Made by a program: the position numbers and the translations under genes
Shown here: piece after piece, positions 15,932 through 44,991 of the stretch
Layout: every line of letters starts with the position of its first letter
Position numbering within the stretch: the stretch's first letter is position 1
The notes under the pieces: generated by a model
What the model was told of the DNA's origin: nothing
The model's database searches: none
The model's input: only the letters and a program-made list of their open reading frames with translations
Source of the DNA: a virus
Reading direction: 5' to 3' (one strand)
DNA length: 64,000 nucleotides
Virus record (IMG/VR): IMGVR_UViG_3300021963_000081
Span: 22,280-86,279 of that record

Positions 15932-17947
15932 ATGAAAGCATCTATATCTCCATTTTTCGGTAAATTTATTGCTGAGGACGTGAAAGATCACTTTTCAGTA
16001 GACTCAAATGCATATATCGGAATCGGTCGTTCTTTAGACTTTGGTTCTTCAGTCACGGATGTCGATGAAGTTGTATTTTCAACAGTTGATGAGAACTCAA
16101 TCTACAGAAACTTAATCGGGTTAAAAAAGATTCAGCCAAGCGATATGCAGCTCGTCGTTGCTCGCGTAGACTGGACTTCTGGCATCTCATATGATCAATA
16201 TGAAGACCATATCAATATCTTCACATACACTGATGTTAATGCTATTGGAACTGCAAACGCTAACGCTAATACAACTCTCGCAGGAACGGCTAACATCGCA
16301 GCCTCAAATGTCGCTATTGGAAATGGAACATCATTCACGAATTATATCTTTCCTGGAGATCAAATCGCTGTAAACTTGGCAGTTAAGACGGTCGTTTCGG
16401 TAACAAATAATACACATTTGATTGTCAATAGTGCATATGCAAATACTAATACAGGCGGATCAGTCGTATTAGTTCGAAATAATAAGACTGTTGTTGCTAA
16501 TTCCGCTGACTTTAGTGCGCGCACCGTTGGCGATGTTATTAGGATTAATACAGATGACAGAGAAATCGTAGCCATTCGAAGCAGCAAAGTCATTTCTCTC
16601 AACTCTGGGCTTACTTACTCCAATTCCAATATTAGTGTCTCAACAGTTTCAAACACATATCCTCTTTACGCAAATAATTTCTATGTAAGAAATAGTCGCG
16701 ATCAAGTGTTTAAGTGTCTTTATGATAACAACGATGCTGTTTCTACTATAGAACCAACCATCGACATTGATGGTCAGCTGCCAGAAAGTCCATTTATTCA
16801 AACTGGCGACGGTTATAAGTGGAAATACATGTACACTATTCCAGCAGGTTTAAAGCAAAAATTCTTTAATACTAAATGGATGCCTGTTCTTACAGATCAA
16901 GCTGTTGTGGCTGGAACTACGCAGGGCGCGATTGATATTATTGAAGTGCTTTGGGGTGGTTCAGGTCATATCGACGGCGGCAATTCTAACACTGCTCGTA
17001 TCCTCGAGATTACTGGAGCAGACGGCGCGAATGCAAATCTTGTCGCGACCGTTTCTGGTGGTGTTATCGCTGGAGTAACGATTCTCAACGGTGGCAACAA
17101 TTATACTCTTGGAACTGTTACTGTTACAGATACGGATAAACTAGGTGCTGTGACTCTTCCTGGAACGGTGAACGTCACGGGAACTACGGTGTATGCAAAT
17201 ACCGCAAACAATCCATATTTTGTGGGTAATGTCTTTGTAAACGATATCGTCACAATTAATGGCGAGAGCAGAAATGTGGTTACTGTATCTACCACTCAAC
17301 TCTCCCTAAATGCGGCTGTTAATACACCTACGAACACACAAATCGCAACGATCGTACGATCAAATGCTGCTTTTAATATTCAGTTCTCTCCATCCTCTGG
17401 TGGGCATGGATCTAATCCTCCAGAAGAACTCGGCGCTCACACTGTTATGATCTCAACAGAGTTGGTTCAAACTGAGAACGAGACGATTCCTGTAAGCCAG
17501 GTTGCTCAATTATTTGACTTCAATCAGGTCTCGATTATTCAAGATCCACTGTATCAATATGCTAATAATACAACTTATTATGCAAATGGTAACAATCTTC
17601 GCGCGACGACAAGACTATTCGTTTCTGACCCTGGAACATCTAATTTCGTCCAAGACGAAACTGTATTTGTTGGTTCTACGGTAGACGATGCAAATACAAC
17701 AGGGGTTGCGAACGTCGCTCACTGGGATCCGAACGATAACTATCTGTATATAAATAATATCACTGGTGTATTTAATGTGCAGGATCCAGTTAAGGGGTTA
17801 TCTTCAGGGGTAACAGTTCCTATTTTAGAGATCGCAAATTCTGAGATTAAGCCATTTAGTGGAACAATGTTGTATACAGAAAACCGTAAAAACGTTGTTC
17901 GATTAGACAATCAAATAGATCAGATTAAGATCGTTCTATCATTCTAG
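15932..17947 (+). CDS. gp8: gp8 baseplate wedge subunit, enlarged
   Basis: A 671-residue protein against 334 in T4. The opening KASISPFFGKFIAEDVKDHF, the YIGIGRSLDF strand and the central FYVRNSRDQVFKCLYDNN, GDGYKWKYMYTIPAG stretch are the gp8 signature. Copies of the GNGTSF...NNTHLIVNS module (about 16290-16450, 16480-16640 and 17150-17340) interrupt the family core, explaining the length. The start follows TAAAAAATG directly after the gp7 stop. gp8 is part of the outer wedge that connects to gp7 and gp10 in T4. Confidence 0.87.
   Translation: MKASISPFFGKFIAEDVKDHFSVDSNAYIGIGRSLDFGSSVTDVDEVVFSTVDENSIYRNLIGLKKIQPSDMQLVVARVDWTSGISYDQYEDHINIFTYTDVNAIGTANANANTTLAGTANIAASNVAIGNGTSFTNYIFPGDQIAVNLAVKTVVSVTNNTHLIVNSAYANTNTGGSVVLVRNNKTVVANSADFSARTVGDVIRINTDDREIVAIRSSKVISLNSGLTYSNSNISVSTVSNTYPLYANNFYVRNSRDQVFKCLYDNNDAVSTIEPTIDIDGQLPESPFIQTGDGYKWKYMYTIPAGLKQKFFNTKWMPVLTDQAVVAGTTQGAIDIIEVLWGGSGHIDGGNSNTARILEITGADGANANLVATVSGGVIAGVTILNGGNNYTLGTVTVTDTDKLGAVTLPGTVNVTGTTVYANTANNPYFVGNVFVNDIVTINGESRNVVTVSTTQLSLNAAVNTPTNTQIATIVRSNAAFNIQFSPSSGGHGSNPPEELGAHTVMISTELVQTENETIPVSQVAQLFDFNQVSIIQDPLYQYANNTTYYANGNNLRATTRLFVSDPGTSNFVQDETVFVGSTVDDANTTGVANVAHWDPNDNYLYINNITGVFNVQDPVKGLSSGVTVPILEIANSEIKPFSGTMLYTENRKNVVRLDNQIDQIKIVLSF
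17749..17756 (+). promoter_or_regulatory. Candidate late promoter inside gp8
   Basis: A perfect TATAAATA, about 200 bases before the DUF4815 protein gene. It falls in codons for Tyr-Ile-Asn-Asn, so it may be chance in AT-rich coding DNA. Confidence 0.3.
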
Positions 17948-25885: not shown

Positions 25886-28675
25886 ATGGCAAATACAGTT
25901 AATGTAGGCATTACAACAACAGCCTGTACTTTCAATCAGTGGCGTATCACCGACAATCTCATGGCGAACGACGTCAACGAGATTGCTCGTGGCAATTTCG
26001 TGAAGGCGACTGGAAATGTTACCATTTCTAATGGATTCCTTCTTCTTGCAAACTCCTCTGGTGGCGTTATTCTAGATGTTCGTGATGATACGAACATCGA
26101 CGGAACACTTACCGTAAAAGATATCGAAGTTGATAACTCAACTGGTCACGTCTATGTTGATGCTGGCGATATCTGGTTCCGTCGTATGGGCTCGGCAGAT
26201 CGTTTCTGGAGCAACACGAACACAACATTCTTCTGTTCTAATGTTTCTGTAACAAACGCAGAAGTCGGAACTTTGAATGTAAACAATCAGATGGTGACGG
26301 TAAATACCTCCATCTTTAATGTTGCAAATACTAATCTTGCAGCAACGATGAACGTCCACCCAGCCAATGTTTGGGTATTTGGCGCAAACTTAACTATTCA
26401 GAATACTTCTTCTGGATCTTTAAATGTCTTTAATAGACTATTGCACGTTAACTCTGGTAATTCGTTCTTCGGAAATACTTCTGCGCTTGCAACATTCAAT
26501 GTCCATCCAGCAAATGTCAATTTCTTCGGCACGAATGTAACCGTATCGAATACAACTGCTGGATCACTAAACGTTGATAATCGTCTTGTGATGGTTACAA
26601 CGCCAAATATTTTCTTCTCAAATACTCACTCATCAGCCAGATTTAATGTAAATCCAAATACTTACTTCCATGGCGGTGAGGTAAATGTTGCAAATACTGC
26701 GCTTACTTCTACTGTAAACGTCCATACTGGTAATGTATTCTTCTTCAGCGGAAATGTTACAGTATCAAATACAACTGGTGGCTCTCTAAATGTCGACAAT
26801 AGACTTGTTATGGTGACAACACCTAACATCTATTTCTCGAATACACATTCTTCTGCTCGCTTCAATGTAAATCCAAACACCTTCTTTACTGGTGGCGAAG
26901 TCAACGTATCAAATACGGCATTGACTTCTACAATGAACGTTCACCCTGCAAATGTTTGGTTCTTTGGTGCAAATGTAACAGTATCAAACACCAGCGATGG
27001 TTCATTTAATGTTGATAATCGTTTGGTCAGAGTAACATCACCAAATGTGATCTATGCAAACACTCATGCTTCCGCAAGATTCAATGTATTCCCAAATACA
27101 TTCTTCCATGGTGGATTAGTAAACGTTGCAAACACTTCACAATTTGCTACCGTTAACATTACACCAAACACTTGGATTTTTGCAAACCTAAACGTTGGAT
27201 CAAACCTTGAAGTCACTGCAAACACTTTCTTGTATTCGAACCTAGCGGTATCTAAGAATACACTAATTTCTCAAAATGCAAACGTCGTTGGAACATTCAA
27301 TGTAACTTCTACTGCTGAAGTAACTGGAAACACTTCGCTCTATTCAAACCTCGCTGTATCTAAGAATACAACGATGTCGCAAAACGCGAATGTATCTGGT
27401 ACGATGAATGTTGGTTCAATACTAGCAGTCACTGGCAACACTGAACTTCTATCCAACCTTGCGGTTTCTAAGAATACGACGTTGAGCCAAAACGCTAATG
27501 TCCTAGGAACTCTCAATGTAACATCTTTCCTCGATGTTGGTGCAAATACAGCGATTGCTGGCAATTTAGCGGTATCACGGAACACCTCTACTGGTAACTT
27601 GAGTGTTACACAAAATGTCGCTGCTGGAAATATTGCTGCAGCAAATGCTGTTTTTACAAATAATCTAGCAGCAGGAAATCTTTCTGTTTCTGGTCTATCT
27701 AACTCTACTTGCGCAAACATTACTACGCTTTGGGTTCAAGACCTAACAGTACAGAATGCCATTGCTGCTCCTGCAACAACGACAGGTTCTGAATATAGAT
27801 TGCGCGTTAGCCAAGGTTCACGCCAAGATGGTTTCTTTGGCGTTGGACTTGGAACTACTGCAAATGGTAATGCATGGTTAAGATTTGATACTTCAGCTGG
27901 CAATGTTTGGCGTGCAACGGCAAATAGCACTGAAGGAACTTACTATACGATTATTACGCGCCAAAATGTATCTGATGATGTTGCAACAACTGATTCATCA
28001 AATGTTGCATCACTCACTGCAGTTAGAATCGCGAATGCAAATGCTCTTGCTGCGTTGGCTGCGGCAAACTCAGGAGCCAATTCTGTTTGGGTCTATGCTT
28101 ACGGTGGTTCTGTTCTTTCGAACGCAAATCTAAACTTCATCAATACTGCTTCTGTGAATGCATTTGCTGCTGCAAATGGTTCAACTCAAGCCAACGTATC
28201 GTTTGCAATGAACACTGCAAACATTGTGGCAATTGGTACTGGCGCAGCTGCTCTTACGATTTCGCCAAACACTACGATTTCTCAAAATCTAACTGTAAGC
28301 GGTAATCTAACTGTCACAGGAAATATTACTGGTACATTGAAGTCGACAAAAGACTCGCTCACAACTGCTACGGTTTCAGGTGCGACGACTGTTAACTTGA
28401 ATAACGGTAACTGGTTTAGATATACATTGACAGGAACTCCAACGTTTACATTCGCGAATGCTCCAGCCTCTGGAAATGCAATGACAGTAACGTTGTTAGT
28501 ATTGCAAAACGGAACAGGAGGATATACGCCAGCTTGGGGTAATACAATCTACTGGGCAGGTGGTCAAGTGCCTCCTGCATCTACTGGAGCGAATAAACTT
28601 GATATGTGGACATTCACAACAACAGATGGTGGAAGTACGTTTATCGGAACATTGGCTGTTAAAGACGCGAGATAA
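25886..28675 (+). CDS. Tail fibre-like protein with beta repeats
   Basis: A 929-residue protein. Residues 1-120 hold an attachment-like region. Then come about four copies of an 80-residue unit (FNVxPNTxFxGGEVNVxNT, VNVHPANVxFFGxNVTVSNT, SLNVDNRLVMVTTPNI; roughly 26280-27180), followed by shorter units (LAVSKNTTLSQNANVxGTLNV; 27180-27640), all suited to a trimeric beta-helix shaft. A VWVYAYGGSVLSNANLNF module (near 28090) and a C-terminal tip (about the last 120 residues, with GGYTPAWGNTIYWAGG and WTFTTTDGGSTFIGTL) are shared with the fibre at 42052. The receptor is unknown. Confidence 0.82.
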   Translation: MANTVNVGITTTACTFNQWRITDNLMANDVNEIARGNFVKATGNVTISNGFLLLANSSGGVILDVRDDTNIDGTLTVKDIEVDNSTGHVYVDAGDIWFRRMGSADRFWSNTNTTFFCSNVSVTNAEVGTLNVNNQMVTVNTSIFNVANTNLAATMNVHPANVWVFGANLTIQNTSSGSLNVFNRLLHVNSGNSFFGNTSALATFNVHPANVNFFGTNVTVSNTTAGSLNVDNRLVMVTTPNIFFSNTHSSARFNVNPNTYFHGGEVNVANTALTSTVNVHTGNVFFFSGNVTVSNTTGGSLNVDNRLVMVTTPNIYFSNTHSSARFNVNPNTFFTGGEVNVSNTALTSTMNVHPANVWFFGANVTVSNTSDGSFNVDNRLVRVTSPNVIYANTHASARFNVFPNTFFHGGLVNVANTSQFATVNITPNTWIFANLNVGSNLEVTANTFLYSNLAVSKNTLISQNANVVGTFNVTSTAEVTGNTSLYSNLAVSKNTTMSQNANVSGTMNVGSILAVTGNTELLSNLAVSKNTTLSQNANVLGTLNVTSFLDVGANTAIAGNLAVSRNTSTGNLSVTQNVAAGNIAAANAVFTNNLAAGNLSVSGLSNSTCANITTLWVQDLTVQNAIAAPATTTGSEYRLRVSQGSRQDGFFGVGLGTTANGNAWLRFDTSAGNVWRATANSTEGTYYTIITRQNVSDDVATTDSSNVASLTAVRIANANALAALAAANSGANSVWVYAYGGSVLSNANLNFINTASVNAFAAANGSTQANVSFAMNTANIVAIGTGAAALTISPNTTISQNLTVSGNLTVTGNITGTLKSTKDSLTTATVSGATTVNLNNGNWFRYTLTGTPTFTFANAPASGNAMTVTLLVLQNGTGGYTPAWGNTIYWAGGQVPPASTGANKLDMWTFTTTDGGSTFIGTLAVKDAR

Positions 28676-36718: not shown

Positions 36719-37054
36719 ATGGCTCAATTTATAGAATTAGACCTGGATCAAGGAACTGATTTCAATTTTGATTTAGACTTGACTCAAGATGACGGATCAG
36801 TCATAAACGTGACGAATTACACGTTTTCTTCGTCCATACGAAAATCCTTTTATTCATCTGGCGTCACAGCAAATCTAACTGTGACGATACTCGACGCTGC
36901 AAATGGGAACGTTTTTCTAAACCTCAATGCGGCAACAACCTCGAATATTAAAGCAGGTCGTTATTTGTTTGATGTCAAACAAATCGATAATGCTAATGTC
37001 ACAACAAGACTTGTTGAGGGCATCATCACAGTTAATCCGCAGGTAACTAAATGA
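36719..37054 (+). CDS. Small beta-sandwich tail protein preceding the collagen-like fibre
   Basis: A 111-residue protein. [33 protein letters not shown] and a C-terminal [13 protein letters not shown] give the layout of small Ig-like or BppU-N-type proteins that commonly precede fibre genes in marine T4-like phages. It overlaps the collagen-like fibre gene by ATGA, so it is coupled to it and may be its attachment or adaptor subunit. The function is inferred from position and fold pattern. Confidence 0.65.
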
Positions 37055-40000
37055 CAACAGTTAGAGTTTCGACAGGTCGTGGTTCTCAAGGATTAAGAGG
37101 TCCACAGGGTCCACAGGGTCCACAAGGACCAACTGGTGCACAAGGTATACAGGGTCAGGCTGGTGGTCCACAAGGTCCTCAGGGCGCTGCTGGTGCAGCA
37201 GGTCCTCAGGGTCCTCAGGGTCCGCAGGGCGCAGCAGGTCCACAAGGACCACAAGGTGCTGGTCCTCAAGGTCCACAAGGACCACAAGGTTCTACTGGTC
37301 CTCAAGGACCACAAGGACCACAAGGTGCTGGTCCTCAAGGTCCACAAGGACCACAAGGTTCTACTGGTCCTCAAGGACCACAAGGACCACAAGGTGCTGG
37401 TCCTCAAGGACCACAAGGACCACAAGGACCACAAGGACCACAAGGTGCTGGTCCTCAAGGTCCACAAGGACCACAAGGACCACAAGGACCACAAGGTGCT
37501 GGTCCTCAAGGTCCACAGGGTCCATCTGGTCCACAAGGTCCACAAGGACCAAGTGGTCCAAATGCTGATGCTGCATATGATCAGGCTAATGCTGCTTATA
37601 GTCAGGCTAACTCAGCATATAATGCTGCGAATAATGCTCAGACATCTGCTAATACAGCAAATACGAATGCATTGAATGCGTATGGTTCAGCTAACTCTTC
37701 AGCCAATACAGTAAGAGTTTCGCAAAATGGATCATCAACTCTAAGTAGTAAGCAATTAAACTTTATTAATACTTCAACGATTACTGTTACAGTAGCCTCT
37801 GCTGGTGATGGAACGAATGCGAATATTTCCTTCACAGCAGTTGGTGGTGCTGCTTATGATCAAGCAAATCTTGCATACACAGCTGCTAACTCTGCTCAGA
37901 CTGCAGCCAATACTGCTAATACTAATGCATTGAATGCTTATGGACAGGCTAATCTATCTTATACAGCTGCTAACTCTGCTCAGACTGCAGCCAATACTGC
38001 TAATACGAATGCACTGAATGCATACAGTTCAGCCAACCTTGCTTATACGGCTGCTAACTCAGCACAAACTGCAGCAAATACAGCTAATACCAATGCTCTA
38101 AACGCTTATGGTGCTGCGAATACTGCTAATACCAATGCACTAAATGCTTATGGGAAAGCAAATAACTCGGCTAATACTGTTTGGGTTTATGCTAATGGAT
38201 CTTCTATCCTTTCTAACGGCAATCTGAATTTTAATAATACTGCAACCATTAATGTTTCTGCATCAGCAAATGGTTCTGGACAATCTAATGTAGAATTTTC
38301 TGTTAATGCTAATTCATTTACCTTAATTGGGCGTCCAACTTCTGCATTAACTCTTGCATCTAATGTAACTGTTTCGCAAGATATGACAGTTACTGGGAAT
38401 CTTTTTGTTCAGGGTGATAGCGTAACATTTAATGTCTCAACACTCAAAGTTGAAGACAATGAAATTATTTTAAACTCTAGTAACACTGGAATTGCTCCTG
38501 CTGTTGATGCATTAATTACTGTAGAAAGAGGAACTTCAACTGATACATATTTAAAATGGAACGAGACAACGGATAAATGGACTTGGAGTGACGATGGAAC
38601 AACAGCTTATAACTTCAGCACCTCACTGAGTGCATATGCTCAAGCGAATTCTGCTTACGGACAAGCAAATCTAGCATACACAGCAGCTAACACTGCTCAA
38701 ACTTCTTCTAATACAGTTTATGCTCAAGCAAATCTAGCATATACCGCCGCAAATTCTGCTCAGACTGCAGCGAATACAGCAAATACGAATGCATTGAATG
38801 CATATGGTGCTGCAAACTCTGCTGCGAATACTGTAAGAGTTTCTTCAAATGGAGGCTCGACGCTTTCTGGCAAGCAACTAAACTTTATCAACACATCAAC
38901 TATTACTGTTACAGTGGCTTCTGCTGGTGATGGAACTAATGCAAATATTTCGTTTACAGCAGTAGGTGGTGCTGCTTACGATCAGGCTAATGCTGCTTAT
39001 GGTCAGGCTAATTTAGCCTACACTCAAGCAAACACTGCTCGATCCGATGCTAATACAACATTCGCTACCATCAACACAACCTTTGGTACGACAAATACAA
39101 CCTTTGGTACTATTAACACTAATTACCAAGCAGCATATTCTCAAGCAAATCTAGCGGCTAACACTGTTGCTGTTTATGCCAATGGTACATTGACTTATGC
39201 TAACTCTAACGTAAACTTTAACAACACTGCAACAGTCAACGTTTCCACATCAGCAAATACAACTAATAAGTTTACTAACGTTGCATTCAGTGTAAATGTT
39301 TCTTCCAGTGACTGGGCAAGTTCTGCTAATGGTGTTGCGCAATCGGCTTATGCTAAAGCAAATTCTGCTGCAAATAATGTTGCAATTTTTGCTAATGGTA
39401 CAGTTGTTCTATCAAATGCTAATGTAAACTTTAACAATACTGCAACTATTAACGTTGCTGCAACTGCTAATGGTACTGGACAAGTTAACGTAGCATTTTC
39501 GATGAACACTTCTTCAATTAGCGCAGGTCCTTCTGGTCCATCTGGTCCATCTGGTCCACAAGGACCAACTGGCGACACTGGACCTCAAGGTCCACAAGGT
39601 CCTCAAGGTGTTGCTGGACCACAAGGATCTACTGGTCCTCAAGGACCACAAGGTCCACAAGGTCCGCAAGGTATTGTTGGTCCTCAAGGTCCTCAAGGTC
39701 CACAAGGTGCTGGTCCACAAGGACCACAAGGTCCGCAAGGTATTGTTGGTCCTCAAGGTCCTCAAGGTCCACAAGGTGCTGGTCCACAAGGACCACAAGG
39801 TCCGCAAGGTGTCACTGGTGCACAAGGTCCACAAGGACCACAAGGACCATCTGGTGCACAAGGTGATGCATCAAATGTTGCAGGTCCACAAGGACCACAA
39901 GGACCACAAGGACCGCAGGGAAATTCAGTTACTGGTCCACAAGGTCCACAGGGACCACAAGGTCCACTTGGCAGTTTAGGTCCTCAAGGTCCTCAGGGTT

Positions 40001-41775
40001 CAATTGGTCCACAGGGTCCGAAGGGTGATACAGGTGATACTGGTCCTCAAGGTCCTCAAGGTTCTCAGGGGGCAACTGGTTCAGCTGGTCCTCAAGGTCC
40101 ACAAGGCGTTACTGGTCCACAAGGTCCGCAGGGTGCGATTGGTCCGCAAGGTCCAAAGGGTGATAAAGGCGATAATGGTCCGCAGGGTCCACAGGGTGCT
40201 CTTGGTCCACAGGGTCCACAGGGTCCTCAAGGACCACAAGGACCACAAGGTCCTCAAGGTCCACAAGGCGTAATTGGTCCGCAAGGACCATCTGGTCCAT
40301 CTGGCGCGCAAGGTTCTGGCATCACAGTTCTTGGTACAGTTGCTACAGTTGGAAATCTTCCTGGTGGTGCAAGTGATGGTGATGCTTATATTGTAACAGC
40401 TGACGGTCACTTATATGTTTGGAATGGTTCAAGTTGGATCGATGCTGGTCTGATTGTTGGTCCTCAAGGTCCACAAGGCACTCAAGGCAATACTGGTCCA
40501 CAGGGTCCAACTGGTCCACACGGTCCTCAAGGTTCAACTGGTCCAACTGGTCCACAAGGTAATGCTGGACCACAAGGACCACAAGGACCACAAGGTCCAC
40601 AAGGTGTCACAGGTCCACAGGGTCCACAGGGTCCGCAAGGTGTAACTGGTCCTCAAGGTCCACAGGGTCCTCAAGGTGTGACTGGTCCACAAGGTCCTCA
40701 AGGTCCACAAGGTATCACTGGTCCTCAAGGTCCGCAAGGTCCGCAAGGTCCTCAAGGTCCACAAGGTCCACAAGGTCCTCAAGGCGATACTGGTCCACAA
40801 GGACCGCAAGGACCACAAGGACCACAAGGTGTCGTCGGTCCACAAGGACCACAAGGTGTCACAGGTCCTCAAGGACCACAAGGTCCGCAAGGTGTCGTCG
40901 GTCCACAGGGTCCACAAGGTTCAACTGGCGACACTGGACCACAAGGTCCACAAGGACCTTCTGGCGTGTCAAATGTTCCTGGTCCACAGGGTCCACAGGG
41001 TCCACAAGGTCCACAAGGTCCACAAGGTCCACAGGGTGTAACTGGTCCTCAAGGACCACAAGGACCGCAAGGTGATCGAGGACCACAAGGTCCGCAAGGC
41101 AATACAGGTCCACAAGGTCCAAAGGGTGATACAGGCGATACTGGTCCTCAGGGTCCACAAGGCGCAACTGGTCCTCAAGGACCACAAGGCGTGGTTGGTA
41201 ACACTGGTCCACAAGGACCGCAAGGTCCTCAAGGAAACTCAGTGACTGGTCCTCAAGGTCCTCAAGGTCCACAAGGACCGCAAGGTCCTCAAGGAAACTC
41301 AGTGACTGGTCCTCAAGGTCCTCAAGGTCCACAAGGACCGCAAGGTCCTCAAGGACCACAAGGACCACAAGGTGTGACTGGACCGCAAGGACCACAAGGT
41401 CCACAAGGTGTGACTGGTCCACAAGGACCACAAGGCTCAACAGGTTCTACTGGCGAAGTCGGTCCTCAAGGTCCACAGGGTCCACAAGGACCGCAAGGTG
41501 CAACAGGTCCACAGGGTCCTCAAGGTCCGCAGGGTGTTACTGGTCCACAGGGTCCAACTGGTCCTGTTGCTGGATCTGATACGCAAGTCATATTTAATGA
41601 TGGCGGTAGTGTAGGCGCAAGTTCTAATTTGACGTTTGCGAAATCAACAAGCACGTTGAAATCAAATACGATACTTGCTGCAAATAATGTTGCGTATGCA
41701 AATACCACTGGAACTGTGAAGGTTATTGTGTACTATAATACAGGAACTGGAACATTAGATACGGTATTCTTATAA
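37051..41775 (+). CDS. Giant collagen-like tail fibre
   Basis: A 1574-residue protein. Three Gly-X-Y blocks (residues about 12-170, 826-1090 and 1137-1506) consist mainly of GPQ triplets with GVT, GST, GNT and GDT variants. Block 1 is followed by alanine/asparagine helical repeats (AYxQANxAYxxANxAQ), two [20 protein letters not shown] modules, a [18 protein letters not shown] module and a [14 protein letters not shown] segment. A short [16 protein letters not shown] domain (1091-1136) with a Trp-rich [12 protein letters not shown] strand separates blocks 2 and 3. The C-terminal 68 residues are a small beta tip. Collagen triple helices in phage fibres make rigid trimeric rods. GAG triplet slips recur. 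Confidence 0.88.
37084..37560 (+). repeat. Collagen block 1 with 69-base exact repeats
   Basis: Gly-Pro-Gln coding repeats. A 69-base unit (23 codons) is present as two identical adjacent copies, 37255-37323 and 37324-37392. Because 23 is not a multiple of three, each unit carries one Gly-Ala-Gly slip in the triplet register. Confidence 0.88.
39526..40320 (+). repeat. Collagen block 2 with 69-base exact repeats
   Basis: A second Gly-X-Y array of about 265 residues. Two identical 69-base units (39661-39729 and 39730-39798) again have 23 codons with a single Gly-Ala-Gly slip. The later part includes charged triplets ([20 protein letters not shown]) resembling the stabilising KGD/KGE triplets of other bacterial collagens. 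Confidence 0.88.
40459..41568 (+). repeat. Collagen block 3 with 60-base exact tandem repeat
   Basis: A third Gly-X-Y array of 370 residues. An exact 60-base unit is duplicated in tandem (41221-41280 and 41281-41340), each encoding a GNSVTGPQG-containing stretch of 20 codons. The recurring NSV and GVSNVPG segments are other register breaks. Confidence 0.88.
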
Positions 41776-42051: not shown

Positions 42052-44991
42052 ATGGCAAAATTAAAAGACGGCTCACGAATTTATGGTAACGTAACAATTG
42101 ATGCTGCTGCATCGATTGCGACAGTTAACGCTACTACCATAAATGTCACCTCAGTTGTGTTAACAAATGGTGTAAACCTAGTTACGCTTGCACAATCTGG
42201 AGGAAGCACCTCTAACGATGCATATGCTCAAGCAAATACTGCTCGTGGAACTGCTAACGACGCATACGGACAAGCCAATACCGCACGTGATACTGCTAAT
42301 GGTTCTTATAGTCAAGCAAATACTGCTCGTGGAACTGCTAACGATGCTTATAGCCAAGCAAACACTGCTCGCACGACCGCGAATGACGCTTACGGTGCTG
42401 CCAATACTGCTGGGACAAATGCACTAAATGCATATGGTCAAGCAAATTCTGCATACAACGCCGCAAATAATGCACAAGTTACAGTCTATGCAAATAACGC
42501 CTCTGCAAAAACTACTCAAAAGATTAATTTTGCTAACACTACAACGATTCAAGTAGCAGTAAGTGCTGATGGCGCAAATGCTAATGTTGAGTTTATCACT
42601 ATCGGTGATTCTTCAGCTGCTACTGTTCAAGCAGCATATGGTGCTGCGAATACAGCAAACACTAATGCACTAAATGCTTATGCTCAAGCAAATACTGCAA
42701 GAAACACTGCTAACGATGCATATTCTGGTGCCAACACTGCTAACACTAATGCACTAAATGCTTATGCGCAAGCCAATACTGCTCGTGGAACTGCTAATGA
42801 CGCTTACGGTCAGGCAAATAGTGCACGCAACCAAGCCAATACTGCTCGAGCAACAGCAAATGATGCTTACGGTGCAGCAAACACTAAATTGTCGACTTCT
42901 GGTGGATCTATCAGCGGAGACTTGACAATTTCTGGTAATCTTGTTATTCAAGGTAATGCAACGACGATCAATGTCAGCAGCTTGTCAGTTAATGACTCTA
43001 TAATTTTGTTGTCAGCAAATAGTGCTGGTGACGCAGAGGATATTGGGTTCGTTGGACACATCACGCGCGATGCCGTGACTACTCATGTAGGCTTCTTCAG
43101 AAAAGCAACAGAAAATCAATTTTATGTCTTTGACAATTATGAAACTGAACCAACAAATAATGTCATTGATATTGCAAATAATACTTTTAGAGTTGGCAAT
43201 GTTAGACTTGGAATTCTAAATGCGAATAGTGTTTTGTTGCTCGGCAATTCAGTTGCAACTCAAGCAAATTTAGTTATTGTATACGATCAAGCCAATACCG
43301 CTTATGGTCAGGCTAATGCTGCTCGTAATCAAGCCAATACTGCACGCACTACCGCTAATGATGCATATGCTGCGGCAAATACAGGATCTGGTAGCGCATT
43401 AAATGCTTATGCTCAAGCAAATGCTGCCAGAGGTCAAGCAAATACGGCATACGGTCAAGCCAATGATGCATATTCTCAAGCAAACCAAGCATATTCTGCT
43501 GCGAACAGCGCAAATCAGTATGCATTTAATTCTCAAATAACTGTTACTGCAAACACGAACGTTGCAGCTGTAGCAAGACCACTAGGACTGAATTTTGTTA
43601 ATACTTCTACAATTACTGTTTTAGTGACAAATGATTCTGGTAATGCAAATATCGCATTTACAGCAGTTGGCGGCGCTGCATATGATCAAGCCAATGCTGC
43701 ATACGCACAAGCAAACACTGCACGCTCTGATGCAAACACCACATTTGGCACTATCAATACAACGTTCGGAACTGTAAACACTTCTCTTGGAACAATCAAT
43801 ACAAATTATCAGGCTGCTTATGCTCAAGCAAATTCAGACTATCAGCCAGCTGTAACTGAATTGGCAGTGACGAATAACGGCGCATCAGCATATCGATTTG
43901 ATCAATATGGTACAGTAGACGACCCTGAAATTTATATTCGTGCTGGTGAAACTATTGCATTTAATTTAAATAATGCAGGACACCCATTTGCAATCCGTGT
44001 TTCAAATGGTGGAGCAAATTATAATACAGGACTGACGCACGTTGCAACAGACGGCACTGTCAGTACTGGATCTAACGCACAAGGTAAAGTAAGTGGTAAA
44101 CTATACTGGAAGGTTCCTTATGAACTTCTAGGCAACACATATGTATACCAGTGTACAGCACATTCTGGAATGGTTGGTAACATTGTCATTGAACCTCCTG
44201 GCACTGTTGTATATGCTCAAGCCAATGCTGCATATGGACAAGCGAACGCAGCATACAGCCAAGCAAATACCGCAAGAACCACCGCAAACGACGCTTATGG
44301 TCAAGCGAATACCGCTCGCACAACTGCAAATGATGCATACGGACAAGCCAATACTGCTCGAACAACCGCGAATGATGCCTATGGTCAAGCAAATGCTGGT
44401 TATAGCCAGGCAAATACCGCAAGAGATACTGCTAATGGTGCATATGCTCAGGCTAATGGAGCATATAGTCAAGCCAACTCTGCTGCGAACACAGTTTGGG
44501 TTTATGCTAATGGCGGTTCAATTCTTGCTAAGAGTAATCTAAACTTTAACAATACTGCAACAGTAAATGTTTCTGCAACTGCTAATGGATCTACTCAAGC
44601 CAATATTGAGTTTAATGCAAACACAACAGCAATTGGAACTAACCTCACAATCAAGTCTGCAAAAGATTTCATTCAAGCAAACACGAATGTGAATGGTGCG
44701 AATACTTGCGATCTATCTGTATCAAACTACTTCCGTTTGGTATTGACTGCATCTGCAGCAATCACGTTTACTAATGCGCCAGCTTCTGGAACTGGACAAT
44801 TGATATCCCTTCTAATTATTCAGAATGCAACTGGTGGATATACTCCTTCTTGGTCTAATACAATATATTGGGCTGGTGGAACTGCGCCTCCTCCAACCAC
44901 AACAGCAAATGCTCGCGACTTGTGGACGTTTATCACTTATGATGGCGGTACTACATATTGGGGTACATTGACGATTAAGGACGCTAGATAA
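42052..44991 (+). CDS. Tail fibre with QAN coiled repeats and an embedded cupredoxin-like domain
   Basis: A 979-residue protein. It has many 14-residue units (YGQANTARTTANDA) in several blocks (about 42210-42470, 42620-42890, 43290-43520, 44205-44480), likely a trimeric coiled coil with Asn/Ala core. Between them lie a VNDSIILLSANSAG fibre module (about 42960-43200) and, at about residues 605-715, a cupredoxin-like domain: RAGETIAFNL, NAGHPFAIRV, then YVYQCTAHSGMVGNIVI, giving ligands H644, C701, H704 and M707. The C-terminus shares the VWVYANGGSIL module and the GGYTPSWSNTIYWAGG tip with the fibre at 25886. Copper binding is predicted only from the ligand pattern. Confidence 0.83.
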   Translation: MAKLKDGSRIYGNVTIDAAASIATVNATTINVTSVVLTNGVNLVTLAQSGGSTSNDAYAQANTARGTANDAYGQANTARDTANGSYSQANTARGTANDAYSQANTARTTANDAYGAANTAGTNALNAYGQANSAYNAANNAQVTVYANNASAKTTQKINFANTTTIQVAVSADGANANVEFITIGDSSAATVQAAYGAANTANTNALNAYAQANTARNTANDAYSGANTANTNALNAYAQANTARGTANDAYGQANSARNQANTARATANDAYGAANTKLSTSGGSISGDLTISGNLVIQGNATTINVSSLSVNDSIILLSANSAGDAEDIGFVGHITRDAVTTHVGFFRKATENQFYVFDNYETEPTNNVIDIANNTFRVGNVRLGILNANSVLLLGNSVATQANLVIVYDQANTAYGQANAARNQANTARTTANDAYAAANTGSGSALNAYAQANAARGQANTAYGQANDAYSQANQAYSAANSANQYAFNSQITVTANTNVAAVARPLGLNFVNTSTITVLVTNDSGNANIAFTAVGGAAYDQANAAYAQANTARSDANTTFGTINTTFGTVNTSLGTINTNYQAAYAQANSDYQPAVTELAVTNNGASAYRFDQYGTVDDPEIYIRAGETIAFNLNNAGHPFAIRVSNGGANYNTGLTHVATDGTVSTGSNAQGKVSGKLYWKVPYELLGNTYVYQCTAHSGMVGNIVIEPPGTVVYAQANAAYGQANAAYSQANTARTTANDAYGQANTARTTANDAYGQANTARTTANDAYGQANAGYSQANTARDTANGAYAQANGAYSQANSAANTVWVYANGGSILAKSNLNFNNTATVNVSATANGSTQANIEFNANTTAIGTNLTIKSAKDFIQANTNVNGANTCDLSVSNYFRLVLTASAAITFTNAPASGTGQLISLLIIQNATGGYTPSWSNTIYWAGGTAPPPTTTANARDLWTFITYDGGTTYWGTLTIKDAR
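43870..44205 (+). other. Cupredoxin-like domain coding segment
   Basis: About 110 codons with the eight-strand pattern of small blue copper proteins. The motif GHPF supplies the first His and YQCTAHSGMVGNI supplies Cys-x-x-His-x-x-Met, the loop length found in amicyanin (CTPHPFM), shorter than in plastocyanin. All four type-1 copper ligands are present. Confidence 0.7.

Follow-up and report, generated by a model that had tools for sequence, protein, structure and literature searches.

The tail fibre encoded on the plus strand at positions 42052-44991 of the window, a 64,000-nucleotide stretch of viral DNA, is predicted to harbor a genuine cupredoxin-fold domain (residues 601-719) resembling the blue copper proteins of plants and bacteria, and the metal site of this domain is likely to bind copper. 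The domain is one member of a phage cupredoxin family spread over the adsorption apparatus, including the gp9 connector, the gp7 wedge protein, and fibres. As hundreds of cyanophages possess it in their fibre and baseplate proteins, virus particles with this domain probably carry copper. Both the fold and its ligands are known; what is new is their phage-specific structural context. Among open PMC papers, none describing the domain was found.

The fibre is a 979-residue protein encoded by an intact open reading frame. It is built of alanine-zipper coiled-coil repeats (Pfam Alanine_zipper, eight stretches, 1.7e-15) with inserted β domains, and matches PHROG tail fibre families at 3e-22 and 4e-11. 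The cupredoxin domain (43852-44208, plus strand; approximate boundaries) forms one discrete unit inserted between coiled-coil segments, and a profile search of the whole 86-kb record returned no second copy, making this fibre the sole carrier. The C-terminal tail-fibre domain (residues about 854-975; 44611-44976, plus strand) belongs to phrog_9017 and phrog_7760. These C-terminal families are common to this gene and to the fibre gene at 25886-28675, which suggests module swapping.

The source record (86,279 bases) is that of a T4-like aquatic phage. Its terminase shares 52% identity with those of cyanophages and 50% with that of Pelagibacter phage HTVC008M, and its tail sheath is closest to those of Pelagibacter, Stenotrophomonas, and Methylophilales phages. 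No psbA was found in the 86 kb, and the host need not be a cyanobacterium. The gene order runs from a tail-fibre assembly-like gene (36719-37054, plus strand; PHROG 3304, "L-shaped tail fiber protein assembly", 1.9e-19) to a collagen-like fibre of 1574 residues (37051-41775, plus strand), the 979-residue fibre, glycosyltransferase-like genes, and then the terminase and sheath genes. The collagen-like neighbor is devoid of a cupredoxin copy; in the relatives L011/L093 and L025, a copy lies inside or adjoining collagen-like repeats that resemble those of this neighbor. By inspection, the segment 45012-48069, which separates the fibre gene from those leading to the terminase, encodes glycosyltransferase-like and 2OG-oxygenase-like proteins, and may be a capsid or fibre decoration island. 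Upstream of the window (L246:1681-2739), a gene resembling IMP dehydrogenase/GMP reductase was noticed, also by inspection, beside a cell-wall-hydrolase-like gene.

The fold assignment rests on several searches. Pfam PF00127 (Copper-bind) matches the isolated domain with E=6e-4 and 20.6 bits, just below its curated cut-off of 21.2, and the NCBIfam plastocyanin and amicyanin models match it at 1e-3, far below their cut-offs (19.2 versus 110.2 bits for the amicyanin equivalog TIGR02657). PHROG 677, the gp9 connector family, matches at 1.2e-28 over profile positions 306-409. AlphaFold2, fed with an alignment of 69 relatives, returns a confident β-sandwich (pLDDT 94.1, pTM 0.87). A PDB search with the profile of the same number of relatives yields 40 matches, all of them cupredoxins or a CuA subunit. 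With Foldseek, 46 PDB entries match at E<=0.001, by their descriptions essentially all copper cupredoxins or copper enzymes assembled from such domains, with amicyanin at the top, followed by copper nitrite reductase, multicopper oxidases, rusticyanin, and plastocyanin; the TM-scores are modest (0.4-0.56). Among viral models, the Foldseek matches are to cyanophage gp9, to proximal tail fibres, and to proteins related to these, with weaker ones to β-sandwich proteins of giant viruses. A phage YHYH protein is also present among the BFVD fold matches. The sequence-only reading had proposed a copper-type, cupredoxin-like domain within a tail fibre, and the predicted fold, the Foldseek matches, and the PDB profile matches bear out the cupredoxin fold.

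The putative copper ligands are His644, within a GHPF motif (43981-43983, plus strand), and Cys701 (44152-44154), His704 (44161-44163), and Met707 (44170-44172), within the loop CTAHSGM (44152-44172, plus strand). They stand in YQCTAHSGMVGNI. The residue numbers given by the earlier reading agree with the translation of the reading frame, and so do the full type-1 ligand set and the Cys-x2-His-x2-Met spacing, which is that of amicyanin. The CxxHxxM motif was rejected as sole evidence, as its codon pattern occurs four times in the 86-kb record, once antisense to an unrelated gene. By itself this motif is cheap, and it is its conservation that raises it above chance.

A zinc-bound Cupredoxin_1 structure (PDB ID: 4hcg) figures among the Foldseek PDB matches, and cupredoxin folds do accept other metals. 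Zinc, nickel, or iron acting as a purely structural clasp is therefore an alternative to copper, albeit an unlikely one: a methionine ligand is conserved in the phage domains, and such a residue is what a copper site, but not a zinc site, would be expected to have.

Amicyanin and plastocyanin (PF00127) resemble the phage domain in their fold and in their His...Cys-x2-His-x2-Met set. They are free electron carriers, whereas the phage domain is held within a fibre. Second-sphere positions also differ. The residue following the first His and the residue at Cys+2 tune the redox potential and the stability of such sites, and an Asn after the first His is usual, although not universal, in type-1 copper cupredoxins. 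It is present in amicyanin and plastocyanin, whereas 196 of 203 phage domains have a Pro at this position. No phage domain with Asn was found there, in a scan that allowed P, A, Q, S, or M and in an inspected alignment without HN. The Pro at Cys+2 of amicyanin (CTPH) is absent from the phage ligand loops.

Conservation of the ligands was assessed with queries from which they had been left out. The N-terminal 304 residues of P-RSM4 gp9, excluding the cupredoxin domain, retrieved 80 loci, and all 63 distinct complete gp9 proteins found in this way end in a domain with the H/C/H/M set. With a ligand-free query, 64/64 distinct gp9 C-terminal domains keep all four ligands. In these 64 domains, 17 of 110 columns are invariant, among them the four ligand columns; the chance that four given columns are all invariant is about 4e-4, a value that ignores the shared ancestry of these related sequences. 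The middle of the window domain, also devoid of ligands, retrieved 49 distinct window-type domains that keep the ligands at 94-96%. Besides a truncation at a contig end, only three copies deviate, having lost the whole set (two in one L014 protein and one in L087/L006). The earlier reading had named the loss of Cys or Met in close homologues as one observation that would count against it; apart from these three copies, lacking the entire set, its ligands withstand this comparison. Relatives share ancestry, and these counts are not independent trials.

Over all loci, 200 distinct domains display H/C/H/M, and one has lost the Met alone (HCHS, L215). The remaining loci are copies cut by contig ends or form a ligand-less sister group, with unrelated residues at the ligand positions. 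Such near all-or-none loss is what a site formed jointly by the four residues would be expected to show. Both synonymous codons are common at the His positions (CAT/CAC 130/73 and 135/68) and at the Cys (TGT/TGC 147/56), indicating that it is the protein, not the DNA, that is conserved. Around the fixed C, H, and M, the ligand loop takes 88 distinct sequences, in a set selected for the motif where only the variation is informative.

The giant fibres L006 (a 2742-residue reading frame containing L087) and L014/L015 (1151 residues) harbor several cupredoxin copies each, with intact and ligand-less copies in one protein, or ligand-less ones in the adjoining fibre gene. The predicted structure of a ligand-less copy is of low confidence (pLDDT 74), with no cupredoxin among its best 50 matches. 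The persistence of such copies in sibling fibre proteins suggests that the module can be of use to a fibre even when metal-free. It also favors a β-sandwich in which the conserved residues would serve for packing only, with no metal at all; this is improbable for the intact domains, as the four ligand positions, although dispersed, are retained or lost as a set, with a single case of partial loss.

Of 50,697 phage records searched by tblastn, 333 contain the gp9 type and 358 contain the collagen-fibre type, the two sets overlapping. Relatives occur in about 350 phage records, almost all from Synechococcus and Prochlorococcus phages, the other carriers being Pelagibacter phages, marine single-cell viruses, and the Actinomycetia phage DSL-LC01. 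The domain had been deemed unexpected in a phage fibre; it does lie inside a fibre, but is not unusual in such phages, as hundreds of sequenced marine cyanophages carry it, usually at the C-terminus of gp9. Other carrier proteins are P-HM2 gp7, with an intact copy, and collagen-like fibres. The protein encoded downstream of gp9 possesses one intact and one ligand-less copy in 64/69 cases. The putative fibres of the T7-like phages P-GSP1 and P-SCSP2 harbor the domain near their N-terminus; a PDB match was sought for that of P-SCSP2, and none was found. The cryo-EM paper on P-SCSP1u does not mention a cupredoxin. The module is thus common to myoviruses, podoviruses, and one actinobacterial phage. 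Mass spectrometry has identified structural proteins in cyanophage virions (PMC3037559).

A pattern search over 84,980 bacterial and archaeal genomes returned no relative of the window type. For the gp9 type, two MAG contigs were hit: a phage-like one in a Rhodopirellula MAG, and one with a 71-residue reading frame in a Bacteroidetes MAG. A cellular origin was rejected on these grounds, one of the two contigs being clearly phage-like, and the family seems confined to phages, as far as these sequences indicate.

A close counterpart of the window domain is the C-terminal domain of the cyanophage gp9 "baseplate wedge tail fiber protein connector" (PHROG 677), which is the same cupredoxin module. 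The settings differ: in gp9, a protein of about 400-500 residues encoded in the baseplate cluster near gp8, the module is C-terminal, whereas in the window it lies in the middle of a 979-residue coiled-coil protein. The window gene is located among fibre genes, not in the baseplate cluster, the baseplate wedge gene (PHROG 438; 15932-17947) being about 24 kb away. The DSL-LC01 protein (L239:4020-5405) resembles the window fibre by its four ligands and by its location beside collagen-like genes. Unlike it, its cupredoxin domain is fused to a YHYH domain (PF14240). Cyanophages also encode a plastocyanin, PetE (PHROG 515), sharing the blue copper fold and matching the window domain weakly (E=0.24). 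PetE is a soluble photosynthetic protein and, unlike the window domain, is not part of a fibre protein.

Functionally, the reading that we favor, by a little over even chances, is that of a structural module in the adsorption apparatus, clasped by copper taken up after lysis. The bacterial cytoplasm is almost devoid of free copper, and the site would thus probably fill once the particle has left the cell. Copper, as Cu+ or Cu2+, would then hold together, at one end of the β-sandwich, the loops that bear the ligands, yielding a compact and stable knob on the fibre; here we infer the identity of the metal, the place of its uptake, and the stabilising role. The module occupies varied positions (mid-fibre, gp9 C-terminus, near the N-terminus of podoviral fibres, and within collagen-like repeats), consistent with a metal-clasped knob being its commonest use.

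The same carriers, being adsorption proteins (fibres, gp9, and gp7) in which the domain is modular and duplicated, also suit a copper-assisted receptor binding, in which the exposed copper edge would touch a ligand at the host surface, much as has been proposed for iron in phage tails. This function is doubtful, about as much as a metal other than copper: the gp9 and podoviral copies are found at fibre-attachment positions, not at tips, and nothing ties the domain to a host receptor.

Electron transfer or redox sensing by the domain is possible, as the type-1 set is complete including its Met, but unsupported. A redox switch, in which the oxidation state of copper would alter the domain and gate adsorption or triggering, for example with light, draws on the conservation of the full set with its axial Met, as in redox-active sites. 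Adsorption of phage P-HM2 falls in the dark and that of P-SSP7 proceeds regardless of light (PMC7112961). P-HM2 carries an intact gp7 copy, and a cupredoxin copy was sought in P-SSP7 and none found. However, these are two phages only, from different families, and this comparison is not a test. Furthermore, the window phage lacks psbA and has a sheath like those of phages of heterotrophs, an actinobacterial phage also possesses the domain, and no redox partner is known. Such a switch is thus quite improbable, roughly on a par with the absence of any metal, and its extension to many aquatic phages, with redox-active copper in baseplates and fibres controlling adsorption or tail triggering according to light or redox state, is slightly less probable still.

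Should the copper-clasped module be filled as proposed, the virions of very abundant ocean viruses would be copper proteins. Their adsorption machinery would then bear a metal cofactor with possible effects on the stability of the particles, on adsorption, and on the copper pool of the sea, and the light-dependence of cyanophage adsorption, as yet unexplained, could be tested there. The cupredoxin assignment also gives a function-bearing label to proteins at present annotated as "hypothetical" or "connector", and it is a warning that a cupredoxin match in a viral metagenome does not necessarily denote an electron-transfer gene. A confusion with NirK was considered and set aside, the paper on viral nirK (PMC8115048) dealing with true NirK, unrelated to the window domain. 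Finally, gp9-type cupredoxins (L171:3913-4218 and others) have weak matches to Pfam PF25489 (plant At5g54830-like domain), a hint that they may belong, together with eukaryotic proteins, to a broader cupredoxin group.
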